This document shows positions 18,148 to 32,842 of a DNA stretch of 64,000 bases, in pieces. Under the pieces are notes generated by a model, which made no database searches, was not told the origin of the DNA, and saw only the letters and a program-made list of their open reading frames with translations. The translations under genes were made by a program, and so were the position numbers. The stretch is from the NCBI GenBank assembly GCA_946481075.1, contig CAMLMC010000002.1:186001-250000 (forward strand). The letters run 5' to 3'. Numbering within the stretch: position 1 is the stretch's first letter; each line of letters starts with the position of its first letter. The stretch comes from an uncultured Alphaproteobacteria bacterium. Its GTDB lineage: Bacteria; Pseudomonadota; Alphaproteobacteria; Micavibrionales; Micavibrionaceae.

Positions 18148-19341
<1,194 letters not shown>

Positions 19342-19791: not shown

Positions 19792-20349
19792 TTACATGGC
19801 CCCGCGGCCGCGCGACATGGCGGCAACGCCTGTGCGGCTGACATCAATCATGCCAAGGCCGCGCATCAAATCAATAAACGCATCGACTTTTTCAGAAGAT
19901 CCGGTGACTTCGAAGACAAAGGATTCGAGAGTAGAATCAACAACACGGGCACGGAAAATATCGGCGGTGCTGAGGGCCTCCACTCGCTTTTCACCAAGAC
20001 CCGCAACTTTGATCAGGGCCAGCTCGCGCTCCACATGCGCACCCTCTGTGGTCAGATCAATGACGCGGTGAACGGGCACCAGACGCTCCAATTGATTTTT
20101 AATTTGTTCGATGACAAGCGGTGTGCCGGAACTAATGACTGTAATACGCGAAAGGTTGTTGTCATGATCCGTTTCGGCAACGGTCAGGCTTTCGATATTG
20201 TAACCGCGGCCCGAAAACAGGCCAATGACACGGGCCAAAACGCCCGGTTCGTTATCGACCAGAACGGAAAGCGTGTGCTTTTCCTCGCGTTCGCCCTTGG
20301 GGCCTGTCCCGTAAACACTTTTGCTGCCAAGTTCTTTTTTTCTAGCCAT
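19792..20349 (-). CDS. ilvN: Acetolactate synthase regulatory (small) subunit
   Basis: 185 residues. An N-terminal ACT domain (HTLSVLVDNEPGVLARVIGL) that binds valine for feedback inhibition is followed by the C-terminal small-subunit domain (RELALIKVAGLGEKRVE). It associates with the IlvB catalytic subunit encoded upstream. The length and the two-domain layout also match what is called IlvH in enterics. A 66-codon gene lies between it and ilvB. Confidence 0.95.
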   Translation of the reverse strand: MARKKELGSKSVYGTGPKGEREEKHTLSVLVDNEPGVLARVIGLFSGRGYNIESLTVAETDHDNNLSRITVISSGTPLVIEQIKNQLERLVPVHRVIDLTTEGAHVERELALIKVAGLGEKRVEALSTADIFRARVVDSTLESFVFEVTGSSEKVDAFIDLMRGLGMIDVSRTGVAAMSRGRGAM

Positions 20350-20698: not shown

Positions 20699-22507
20699 TT
20701 ACACAAGCTTTTTATCGTACTGGCTGGGATCGGCGGCCAGAATCATTTCATTGTGCGCCTTGCCGGATGGGATCATCGGGAAGCAGTTTTCCTTTTGATC
20801 CACGCAAACATCGACGATTGTTACGCGGTCCGTATTCATCATCCGCTCGATCACATCATCGAGTTCTGCCGGAGTCGTCGCGCGCAGGCCGATCCCGCCA
20901 TAGGCTTCGGCCAGTTTGACGAAGTCGGGCAGGGAGTCGGTGTAGGAATTGGAATAACGCTCCCCATGCAGTAATTCCTGCCATTGCCGCACCATCCCCA
21001 TCCATTGGTTGTTGAGGATAAAGATTTTGACCGGAAGGCGGTATTGTACGGCCGTGCTCATTTCCTGAATATTCATCAGGATCGAGGCTTCACCGGCAAC
21101 ATCGATGCACAGGGCATCGGGGTGCGCCATCTGCGCGCCGATGGCGGCAGGAAGGCCGTAACCCATGGTGCCGAGTCCGCCGGATGTCATCCATCTATTG
21201 GGCTTGTTGAATTTCAGGAATTGCGCCGCCCACATCTGGTGCTGGCCGACTTCGGTGGAGATGTAGGTTTCCCGCTTGTCCTTTTCTATCGCGGCCTGAA
21301 GTTTTTCGAGCGCATATTGCGGTTTGATGACGTCATCGCTTCTTTGATAGTTGAGGCATTTTACGCTGCGCCACTTTTCGATCTGTGCCCACCAGTCGTT
21401 CATGGCGTCTGCATCGGCCTTGAATCCGCGCTTAGTCCAAGCATCAAGCAGTGCCTTTGTTGCCTTGCCGGCATCGGCGACAATCCCGAGATCAACATGA
21501 ACGTTTTTATTGATGGAAGATGGATCGATATCGATATGAATTTTCTTGGAGTTCGGCGCAAAGGCATTAAGGCGGCCTGTTACGCGGTCATCGAACCGCG
21601 CGCCGATACAAATCATCACATCGCAATCATGCATGGTCCAGTTGGCCTCGTACGTGCCGTGCATACCAAGCATACCGAGCCATTGTTTGTCATCCGCCGG
21701 AAAGGCCCCAAGTCCCATAAGGGTCGATGTTATTGGGAAGCCTGTGGCATGGACCAGAGCGGTGAGCGTTTTGCTTGCCTCTGGCCCTGCATTGATAATG
21801 CCACCGCCCGTGTAAAAAACGGGTTTCTTTGCAGACGCCATCATCTCGATGGCCTGATTGATCAAATCCGGATCTGCTTCCGTGCGGGGTTGGTACATAT
21901 GCAGCGGGGCTTCATCTTTTGAAACATAGGCACCGTCTGCAAACTGGATGTCCTTCGGCAAGTCGATGAGAACGGGGCCGGGCCGGCCGGAGCGTGCGAC
22001 ATGAAAGGCTTCATGAATGATCTGGGCAAGGTCGTTCACATCTTTGACAAGGTAATTGTGCTTGGTACAAGCGCGGGTGATGCCCGTTGTATCCGCCTCT
22101 TGAAATGCGTCGGTACCGATCAGGAAGGTTGGAACCTGTCCCGTAATGCAAACCATGGGAATGGAATCGAGCAAAGCATCGGTCAGGGCCGTAACGGTGT
22201 TCGTTGCGCCGGGGCCGCTTGTTACAAGGCAGACGCCAACCTTGCCGGTGGATCGGGCATAGCCTTCCGCCGCATGTCCGGCCCCCTGTTCGTGGCGAAC
22301 CAGAACATGTTTGACCTTCTTTTGTTGGTAGAGCGCATCATAAATCGGCAAAACAGCACCACCCGGATAACCGAAGATCGTATCCACGCCCTGCTGCGCC
22401 AAAGCTTCCATCACGATTTGTGCGCCAGTCAGTATGCGCGGCTTCACGGCTGGCTTGACGGGGGCTTCGAATTGGATTGCCTGATCGGTGCCGGTTTTGG
22501 GGGTCAT
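20699..22507 (-). CDS. ilvB: Acetolactate synthase catalytic (large) subunit
   Basis: 602-residue thiamine-diphosphate enzyme that condenses two pyruvates, or pyruvate and 2-oxobutyrate, in the first committed step of branched-chain amino acid synthesis. The N-terminal motif FGYPGGAVLPIYDAL carries the region contacting the cofactor, RHEQGAGHAAEGYAR holds the catalytic glutamate, and the C-terminal GDG-type metal motif is DVAGEASILMNIQEM (GEA variant) with NNQWMGMVRQWQELL after it. It is preceded by a leader peptide gene and attenuator at 22742-22871 and by a second hairpin just before its ribosome binding site. Confidence 0.97.
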   Translation of the reverse strand: MTPKTGTDQAIQFEAPVKPAVKPRILTGAQIVMEALAQQGVDTIFGYPGGAVLPIYDALYQQKKVKHVLVRHEQGAGHAAEGYARSTGKVGVCLVTSGPGATNTVTALTDALLDSIPMVCITGQVPTFLIGTDAFQEADTTGITRACTKHNYLVKDVNDLAQIIHEAFHVARSGRPGPVLIDLPKDIQFADGAYVSKDEAPLHMYQPRTEADPDLINQAIEMMASAKKPVFYTGGGIINAGPEASKTLTALVHATGFPITSTLMGLGAFPADDKQWLGMLGMHGTYEANWTMHDCDVMICIGARFDDRVTGRLNAFAPNSKKIHIDIDPSSINKNVHVDLGIVADAGKATKALLDAWTKRGFKADADAMNDWWAQIEKWRSVKCLNYQRSDDVIKPQYALEKLQAAIEKDKRETYISTEVGQHQMWAAQFLKFNKPNRWMTSGGLGTMGYGLPAAIGAQMAHPDALCIDVAGEASILMNIQEMSTAVQYRLPVKIFILNNQWMGMVRQWQELLHGERYSNSYTDSLPDFVKLAEAYGGIGLRATTPAELDDVIERMMNTDRVTIVDVCVDQKENCFPMIPSGKAHNEMILAADPSQYDKKLV

Positions 22508-22518
22508 GATGCTTCCTT

Positions 22519-22560
22519 AATAAAACAAAGCCCGCGAGGGGAGGCCCCAGGCGTGGCTTT
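22519..22560 (-). terminator. Terminator-like hairpin directly upstream of ilvB
   Basis: On the minus strand AAAGCC pairs with GGCTTT around an inner GGGG/CCCC stem, followed by GTTTTATT. The AAGGA ribosome binding site of ilvB comes immediately after the U-run, so a transcript ending here would lack ilvB. It may be a second attenuator or a processing signal. The 233 bases between it and the upstream attenuator hold no other recognised gene; an open frame overlapping the ilvB start by ATGA runs through the hairpin. Confidence 0.55.
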
Positions 22561-22741
22561 GTGGTTTGCACAATGGAGGTTTAAGCTGTAATACCCCTTC
22601 ATTATGGACATAATCATTGAGCGTTTGCAAAAGAAATGGAATTTTCTTTCAAAAAAAGCAAGATTATTATAATGAACGTTTATATGATGCATAACTTCCA
22701 TACCTTAATTGCATAGCTTGGTTCTTTTCTTTCAAACCAAT

Positions 22742-22778
22742 AAAAAAGCCCCGGCAGATTTCTCTATCGGGGCGCTTT
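22742..22778 (-). terminator. Attenuator terminator of the ilv operon
   Basis: On the minus strand GCCCCG and CGGGGC form a stem followed by TTTTTT (plus-strand A-run 22742-22747). It lies 24 bases after the stop of the Val/Leu-rich leader peptide. A competing six-base pairing is visible: GGCGCT in the last leader codons (plus 22813-22818) can pair with AGCGCC (plus 22771-22776), which overlaps the terminator's 5' arm. This is the arrangement expected for translation-coupled attenuation. Confidence 0.82.
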
Positions 22779-22802
22779 ACGTGTTTGACTTATCCAGATA
22801 CG

Positions 22803-22871
22803 TCAGACTGTTAGCGCCTCCGTTAGAAGCACCACCAGCACGACGACCAGAATGGACAAAGCTTGTTGCAT
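22803..22871 (-). CDS. ilv operon leader peptide (22 codons)
   Basis: Encodes a 22-residue peptide whose core is SILVVVLVVLL: six Val, six Leu and one Ile. It is placed ten bases after the miaA stop, with an AGG site eight bases before its ATG, and is followed by an intrinsic terminator with a competing antiterminator pairing. Leader peptides rich in the end-product amino acids control ilv operons in other proteobacteria: ribosome stalling on Val/Leu/Ile codons when charged tRNA is scarce prevents the terminator from forming. The downstream target is ilvB. Confidence 0.82.
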   Translation of the reverse strand: MQQALSILVVVLVVLLTEALTV

Positions 22872-22880
22872 AAAATAAGC

Positions 22881-23786
22881 CTATGACAGAATTTCAATAC
22901 CTGCAATATTTTTTTGCGATGCAATCTGGTTTTTAAACCATGTTACCTGCCGCTTGGCATATTGGCGTGTTTCCGTCTGGGCCAGATTGATTGCTTCATC
23001 CTTCGATATTTCACCAATCCGGTAACGGCGAAGCGGTTGTGCACCGACAGTTTTCATCAAAATGGCATCGGGCTTGATTTCGCCGTTGGCCACACGGGAA
23101 TCGAACGCGGACAGTTCTTCGATTGCGCCGTTGTTCACCATATAAACAAAACGGTGGTTAATCCGTTCATGAAGAGCAGAGCGTTCCGGCATCACCAGCG
23201 TGATATCGAATTGCCAGTCGGCAGGAGGTGCAACTTTCGGAATTTGTTGCCATTGCGCAAGTGGTTTTCCCGTCGCCTCCAATATCTCCCATGCATGGAC
23301 AAGCCGGGCTGTGTGCATGGGATGATAGAGCGCCGCTGTTTCCGGATCACGCTTTTGCAGTTCTTCATAAAAGGCAGGGTTGCCAAGCTCCATCTGTTTT
23401 GCCACGGCGGCCTTACGGATGTCATCCGGCACTTCTGGAATGGGCGAAAGCCCTTCGATCAGTGCCTTGATATACAGCCCGTTACCGCCCGTGATGATCG
23501 GCGTTTTGCCGCGTTCAAAAATATTCTCAATTAGCGGCATCGCCATCTTCACCCATGACCCTGCGGAGCAAAGTTCGTTCGGGTGCAGAACGCCGTAGAG
23601 TTCATGATGTGCGATATCAAGGTCTTCCTGCGGCGGTTGCGCGGTCAATATCGGCAGGCCTTCATATATTTGGCGTGAGTCGCAATTGACGATGACGCCG
23701 TCCAGTTTTTGCGCCATGTCGATGGCAAGCGCCGATTTCCCGCCTGCCGTTGGCCCCGCCACGATATGAATGGTTTTCTTATCCAT
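22881..23786 (-). CDS. miaA: tRNA dimethylallyltransferase
   Basis: Transfers a dimethylallyl group to A37 of tRNAs reading UNN codons. The 301-residue protein begins with the P-loop GPTAGGKSALA, continues with VNCDSRQIYEGLPILTAQP and ITGGNGLYIKALIEGL, and ends with the family's QTETRQYAKRQVTWFKNQ motif. It lies upstream of the ilv leader on the same strand, as in many alphaproteobacteria. A terminator separates it from degP, so it probably starts its own transcript. Confidence 0.97.
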   Translation of the reverse strand: MDKKTIHIVAGPTAGGKSALAIDMAQKLDGVIVNCDSRQIYEGLPILTAQPPQEDLDIAHHELYGVLHPNELCSAGSWVKMAMPLIENIFERGKTPIITGGNGLYIKALIEGLSPIPEVPDDIRKAAVAKQMELGNPAFYEELQKRDPETAALYHPMHTARLVHAWEILEATGKPLAQWQQIPKVAPPADWQFDITLVMPERSALHERINHRFVYMVNNGAIEELSAFDSRVANGEIKPDAILMKTVGAQPLRRYRIGEISKDEAINLAQTETRQYAKRQVTWFKNQIASQKNIAGIEILS

Positions 23787-32441: not shown

Positions 32442-32461
32442 TCGCGGCTTTTTCAGTTATC

Positions 32462-32490
32462 TTGAAATCTTAACGTTTTATCCCTATATT
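32462..32490 (+). promoter_or_regulatory. Promoter of ssrA
   Basis: TTGAAA at 32462-32467 and TATATT at 32485-32490 are separated by 17 bases, a near-consensus sigma-70-type promoter. The predicted start is near 32497, just before the GGGGC that begins the acceptor-side segment of tmRNA. Confidence 0.8.
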
Positions 32491-32496
32491 GAAGGT

Positions 32497-32842
32497 ACGG
32501 GGCTTGCCCCGTTATGACGCTAAACGTTGTTACGGAATAGGCGTCGTGGACCCGGGGGCAGTGCCCGGCAGGTCCACCAGTATTCGTCTTCACGGGCGAA
32601 TGCAGGCGGGCCTGAAACAGGATCGACACGCGTAATAAAGGTAATTTGCGGCGTTCGGAATGATACCGCCGGGGTTTTGCCCGAAGGGTCAAGCATTATA
32701 AATGCAAACGATAACTACCAAGCACCAGTTGCTCTCGCCGCGTAACGCAGCCTGAGCTACTAAAGCTACAATTCCTGTGACAGTGCTGTTACAGGTGGGG
32801 TTCGGCCGGTTCCTCGCAACAGAATACCGGCCATTTTCTTTT
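32497..32842 (+). ncRNA. ssrA: tmRNA, two-piece (circularly permuted) alphaproteobacterial type
   Basis: The tRNA-like 3' part comes first: a T-arm CCGGG-GGCAGTG-CCCGG and acceptor strand CAGGTCC, discriminator A and CCA ending at 32579. After an intervening segment of about 28 bases the coding piece begins at 32608 with GGGCCTG, which pairs with the acceptor strand, followed by the conserved GGATCGAC. The tag frame resumes at GCA 32704 and ends at TAA 32743-32745, giving the peptide ANDNYQAPVALAA, which ends in the ClpX signal LAA. tmRNA with SmpB rescues stalled ribosomes and marks the product for proteolysis. Processing into two RNAs is known in this class. The ClpXP adaptor gene sspB is nearby. 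Confidence 0.93.
32804..32842 (+). terminator. Terminator of ssrA
   Basis: GGCCGGT (32804-32810) pairs with ACCGGCC (32826-32832) and is followed by ATTTTCTTTT. It closes the ssrA transcript. Confidence 0.75.

Follow-up and report, generated by a model that had tools for sequence, protein, structure and literature searches.

Control of amino acid operons by ribosome-mediated attenuation is textbook material. The ilvL and ivbL attenuators of Escherichia coli combine a leader peptide rich in valine, leucine and isoleucine with a four-strand RNA switch, as does the locus described here; they differ from it in their unrelated leader sequences and their ordinary mode of translation initiation. Closer to hand, the Caulobacter ilvBN attenuator is described as having a leader in which Ile and Val codons occur in tandem, and a terminator whose formation stalling prevents (PMC4117421, which cites Tarleton, Malakooti and Ely 1994). 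According to that description, it is likewise an alphaproteobacterial system in which a leader and a terminator precede the same enzyme genes, and ilv attenuation can thus be considered already known in alphaproteobacteria. The original prediction of an ilv leader device in the present lineage stands, but the device is not new to the class. A further likeness is found in trpL/rnTrpL of Sinorhizobium meliloti, described as a leaderless leader frame with a terminator and ribosome-dependent logic, albeit for tryptophan rather than branched-chain amino acids, and with additional trans-acting roles reported for rnTrpL (PMC7298713, PMC10117765). We consider it very probable that the stretch upstream of ilvB studied here controls the ilvB operon by ribosome-mediated transcription attenuation. 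It is a known type of switch with family-specific features, extending ribosome-mediated ilv attenuation to a little-studied, small-genome alphaproteobacterial family that includes a MAG titled Micavibrio.

The window (the whole 64,000-nucleotide stretch of DNA that was analysed) contains, in order along its minus strand, miaA, a 22-codon frame, a terminator hairpin, ilvB, ilvN and ilvC (Table 1). The encoded IlvB shares 84% identity with its counterpart from a Pseudomonadota MAG (L001) and 73% with the one from the MAG titled Micavibrio (L002). These two genomes group together in a single family group (n = 104 genomes), to which we infer the window belongs. Elsewhere in the window, an alphaproteobacterial tmRNA gene is located at 32458-32835 on the plus strand (222.8 bits).

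Table 1 Features of the ilvB upstream region and neighbouring genes, in window coordinates.
Feature	Position	Strand	Basis
miaA	23786-22881	minus	MiaA upstream of leader
Predicted promoter P1, overlapping the miaA end	22878..22906	minus	conserved -35 spacing; -10 assigned by eye
Leader frame MQQALSILVVVLVVLLTEALTV, 22 codons, probably leaderless	22803..22871	minus	ORF reading and relatives
Strand 1, within Val/Leu codons	22825..22833	minus	MFE structure; weak S1:S2 co-variation
Strand 2 (GGAGGCGCU), final leader codons	22813..22821	minus	MFE fold, duplex energies
Strand 3 core AGCGCC, antiterminator partner of strand-2 GGCGCU	22771..22776	minus	S2:S3 co-variation
Intrinsic terminator: GCCCCG 22773-22768, CGGGGC 22753-22748, six U 22747-22742	22742..22773	minus	-17.0 kcal/mol
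P2, promoter-like: AT-rich box 22671-22638, -35 TTGCAA (22630-22625), -10 CATAAT (22606-22601)	22601..22671	minus	alignment and promoter scan
5' leader of P2: CCTCC (22579-22575), terminator-like hairpin AAAGCC...GGGCTTTGTTTT directly before ilvB	22521..22600	minus	alignment, model matches
ilvB, acetolactate synthase large subunit, putative regulated gene	20699..22507	minus	NCBIfam NF006581, TIGR00118
ilvN, acetolactate synthase small subunit	19792..20349	minus	TIGR00119
ilvC, ketol-acid reductoisomerase	18148..19293	minus	TIGR00465

The leader frame is short and rich in codons for the products of the pathway, both in the window and in 52 of 71 relatives. Isoleucine, valine and leucine make up 13 of the 22 residues of MQQALSILVVVLVVLLTEALTV in the window, exactly as the original prediction had counted them for a frame between miaA and ilvB, and 10 residues of the best 11-residue stretch. 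The distance from the leader stop to AAAGCGCCCCG is 24 nt, and the hairpin closes with six T (22747-22742), so the intrinsic terminator that separates the leader from ilvB (-17.0 kcal/mol, with six U) was found at the distance and with the U-tract that had been described. The proposed pairing of GGCGCT with AGCGCC proved exact: GGCGCT in the final codons (22818-22813; codons GAG GCG CTA) is fully complementary to AGCGCC (22776-22771), and the latter overlaps the 5' arm of the terminator (22773-22768). The resulting antiterminator GGCGCU:AGCGCC makes use of this arm, and is mutually exclusive with the terminator. In addition, the MFE structure of the window contains a 9-pair helix between strand 1 and strand 2 (22833-22825 with 22821-22813), which would permit termination in the absence of translation, and all four classical attenuator strands are thus present. 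The original prediction of a complete attenuator logic was correct for strands 2, 3 and 4, but had overlooked strand 1 with its 1:2 hairpin, as well as P1 and the P2 region. Upon folding, the 169-nt strand reached -61.1 kcal/mol versus -41.7 ± 3.6 kcal/mol for shuffled sequences (z = -5.4, 0/200). A simple terminator scan, limited to uninterrupted stems and loops of 3-8, listed three sites that do not include the leader terminator, probably because a stem with an internal mismatch falls outside these limits. None of the Rfam leader families matched the window at gathering score, the best of the sub-threshold matches being His_leader with 17.5 bits versus 49.

We compared the ilvB upstream DNA of 71 relatives, drawn from the 86 genomes of the family in which IlvB was matched. 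The remaining 15 were left out, having either fragmentary IlvB matches (seven: G016, G024, G029, G068, G074, G075, G081) or a distant IlvB paralogue only (eight: G032, G040-G044, G048, G049). To be counted as a leader, a frame had to contain at least 7 Ile/Val/Leu (ILV) in a stretch of 11 residues and to have a hairpin and a T-run after it. An ILV-rich leader and terminator precede ilvB in 52 of the 71 relatives, i.e. in 53 of 72 upstream regions when the window is included, although one of the leaders counted is doubtful (L137, located 1,146 nt from ilvB). No leader was detected by these criteria in the other 19 relatives, L002 included. The leader frames keep their Val/Leu core while the sequence varies. 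MiaA was found in the upstream DNA of 41 of the 71 relatives, 32 of them among the 52 with a leader. Three of the relatives without leader peptide (L109, L118 and L124) share another leader-like stretch before ilvB, GGCTGAACAGGAAAC ... GCGCG ... CGCGCTTTAA. Across the family, 18 of 104 genomes lack an IlvB match and 14 of 104 lack a LeuA match, which could reflect either gaps in the assemblies or the loss of the branched-chain pathway.

Strands 2 and 3 were found to co-vary among these leaders. When strand 2 of each genome was paired with strand 3 of the same genome, the duplex energies added up to -1179.4 kcal/mol, compared to a mean of -984.2 kcal/mol (sd 21.9) when strand 3 was dealt out among the genomes, the best of 20,000 such rounds reaching -1078.1 kcal/mol. 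With trimmed strands, own pairs were matched by 0/20,000 permutations for 2:3 and likewise by 0/20,000 for 3:4. Co-variation of strands 1 and 2 is weak (reached by 198/20,000), while the control pair 1:3 displays no own-pair advantage (16,379/20,000 permutations reach it). A composition control in which strand 3 was reversed retained a small own-pair gain (1.2 of 3.4 kcal/mol, about a third, reached by 5/20,000), so part of the 2:3 signal is due to base composition. The exchange of one helix for another is directly visible in some cases, with GGGACGC:GCGUCCC in L097 and AAGGGCG:CGCCCUU in L086 occupying the same place. The presence of a conserved Val/Leu-rich frame in relatives, which the original prediction had anticipated, is hence borne out, and the combination of leader, terminator and co-varying antiterminator in the window and 52 of 71 relatives supports the translation-dependent attenuator it proposed.

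The putative promoter P1 consists of a -35 box TTGCAG (22906-22901), a 17-nt spacer and a -10 box TAGGCT (22883-22878), followed by TATTTT and the AUG. A TTG[CAT] motif starting 33-38 nt 5' of the AUG was observed in 42 of 52 leaders (L092, which has no upstream sequence, was excluded from this count), compared to a mean of 3.4 and a maximum of 10 in 1000 shuffles; 39 of the 42 boxes read TTGC. Counted by column, the family leaders have a T/A peak resembling a -10 box at -13 to -11, and Shine-Dalgarno-like 4-mers are rare between -18 and -4 (4 of the 52). As judged from these sequence features, the leader mRNA is probably leaderless, with transcription starting at or adjoining the AUG.

The promoter spacing suggests RNA polymerase would start at P1, at or directly beside the leader AUG, and hence that the leader would be translated from a leaderless mRNA. 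With ample supplies of Val-tRNA and Leu-tRNA, the ribosome would reach the stop codon and cover strand 2, allowing the 3:4 terminator to form. When these run low, the ribosome would stall on the Val/Leu codons and cover strand 1 (fully at approximately codons 11-13), in which case 2:3 pairing would precede synthesis of strand 4 and transcription would proceed into ilvB. If the leader is not translated, 1:2 and 3:4 would both form and transcription would stop. Such an attenuator would most likely turn the operon on upon shortage of branched-chain amino acids.

Stalling was simulated at codons 6-22 (17 positions), the downstream edge of the ribosome being set 15 nt away from where the stalled codon begins. 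For stalls at codons 11-13, strand 1 is entirely or nearly entirely covered, and strand 2 is free or one base short. The 2:3 fold available before strand 4 exists amounts to -19.3 kcal/mol at codons 11 and 12 and -15.0 kcal/mol at codon 13, with the terminator at -17.0 kcal/mol. The same 2:3 value of -19.3 kcal/mol is obtained at codons 7-10, where some or all of strand 1 is exposed and available for the 1:2 helix; for stalls at codon 9 or earlier, most of strand 1 is uncovered and this helix does form. A stall at codon 14 reduces the 2:3 fold to -11.1 kcal/mol, and from codon 15 onwards to -4.6 kcal/mol or weaker, leaving the terminator (-17.0 kcal/mol) as the only strong fold. When the complete window RNA is considered, the terminator is part of the MFE structure at 16 of the 17 stall positions (the exception being codon 6), and antitermination must therefore be kinetic, as is usual for ribosome-mediated attenuators.

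A second promoter-like region, P2, lies between the terminator and ilvB. Nine relatives, picked by eye, share with the window an alignable AT-rich box, a promoter-like TTG...(C/T)ATAAT pair, CCTCC and a terminator-like hairpin, with the exception of L083, which is without the -10 hexamer, and of L086 and L151, which have TCTCC for CCTCC. The promoter scan yielded 3 sites versus 1.7 expected by shuffling. The AT-rich consensus, itself drawn from such sequences, is matched at 27 or more of 33 positions in 7 of the 19 relatives that have no leader. Going by these motifs, transcription from P2 would sidestep the leader attenuator in the clade of the window, and could lower its importance. A role of the P2 element as a dispersed sRNA is disfavoured, though not refuted: the corresponding model (R1) matched 6 of 104 genomes, once each and before ilvB, five of these six genomes being among the six sequences from which it was built. 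This search scored 37 candidates per genome, out of ~180-540 first-look candidates in the genomes listed, under strict filters, so more copies are possible. In the window, R1 matched its own site and, weakly, two plus-strand sites (E 2.4 and 3.1). We also rejected the AT-rich box as a general regulator site, since matches with at most 3 mismatches were found in 3 of 104 genomes, always before ilvB, at a strict threshold and with a consensus made from the same ilvB regions.

The existence of P2 raises the question of whether the upstream hairpin is a mere terminator at the end of miaA, with the small frame incidental and ilvB driven by P2 alone. Such a reading would account for a terminator that begins 108 nt past miaA and for a downstream region with its own -35 and -10 boxes that would bypass it. 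However, no MiaA was detected in the examined upstream DNA of 20 of the 52 leader-bearing relatives, and in many relatives the leader ends less than 200 nt from ilvB. The retention of the Val/Leu core despite sequence change, the co-variation of strands 2 and 3 and the conserved spacing of P1 are all at odds with an incidental frame, rendering this explanation highly improbable.

A less drastic alternative concerns only the origin of the transcript, as the leader could be read from a longer RNA with an ordinary 5' UTR, for instance by read-through from miaA, leaving the attenuation logic unchanged. The gap to miaA is short, and TTG[CAT] is absent at 33-38 nt in 10 of the 52 leaders, including that of the closest relative L001, where TGGACT and TTTAAT were assigned by eye instead. 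Against this, promoter-like boxes occur at a fixed distance from the AUG and 48 of the 52 leaders have no Shine-Dalgarno-like 4-mer at -18 to -4, hence we regard a longer transcript as unlikely and a leaderless start at P1 as the more probable reading. The leader RNA released by termination could furthermore have a trans-acting function, be it as an sRNA or as a small leaderless mRNA, comparable to Sinorhizobium rnTrpL/peTrpL, given that the architecture matches that of the trp attenuator as described in PMC7298713 and PMC10117765. The leader peptides differ outside the ILV core, however, and such an additional role appears very unlikely.

In alphaproteobacteria beyond the family, 30 loci picked by eye out of 78 have a short Ile/Val/Leu-containing frame before ilvB, with five T no more than 70 nt past the stop in 24 of the 30. 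These leaders are 11-19 residues long and their ILV-richest 11 residues include 5-7 ILV, compared to 22 residues and 10 ILV for the window, and several of the loci have GGAG-like sequences before the ATG, unlike the window. TTGAC is located 35-38 nt 5' of the leader ATG in 11 of the 30, a spacing as seen in the window family, and the arrangement may thus be common in alphaproteobacteria. The set of 53 attenuator candidates assembled here, most of them probably leaderless, offers a comparative basis for studying how ribosome loading directly on the first AUG times the switch.

Asparagine is the third commonest residue of the 53 leaders (132 of 1,227), with at least two Asn per leader in 47 of them. 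It accounts for 22% of the non-ILV residues, versus 4.0% in the ilvB coding sequence (whole or 5' part) of the same genomes. In the leader core from residue 7 onwards, 48 of 100 non-ILV residues are Asn, compared to 2 for Lys, which is also encoded by AA-codons. The window leader is the sole one of the 53 without Asn, and contains two Gln codons; the enrichment therefore concerns the family rather than the window's copy. It is conceivable, though unlikely, that the family ilv attenuator senses asparaginyl-tRNA besides Val, Leu and Ile, and the Asn codons provide a testable hint of such a second input. Glutamine-dependent transamidation is a route to Asn-tRNA. No AsnRS match exceeded the cut-off in any of the 104 family genomes, while GatB was found in 94, suggesting Asn-tRNA would be supplied by this route. 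Sub-threshold AsnRS matches, presumably to related synthetases, occur in 103 of the 104, with G062 and G069 reaching 144-146 bits over part of the model versus a cut-off of 342.6. Were Asn-tRNA indeed sensed, branched-chain synthesis would be coupled to nitrogen status. AsnB-type proteins score above cut-off in 90 of 104 genomes, and the family is thus not simply an Asn auxotroph. Other possible readings are that Asn serves as a polar breaker of a hydrophobic peptide, or that its codons provide an unstructured start for leaderless initiation. The phrase "asparagine codons" was absent among the matches listed in the literature on ilv and leader-peptide attenuation. Asn might also be a general filler in leaders of this family; to compare other leaders, the best 30 trpE loci were examined, where no convincing Trp leader was observed, and the best 30 leuA loci, which yielded one leader candidate (L158, MDKKSASLLLLNLLLMNP). 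In G001:C63, G104:C2, G092:C16, G056:C10 and G095:C90, leuA shares its contig with an AsnB-type gene at a distance of ~5-35 kb.
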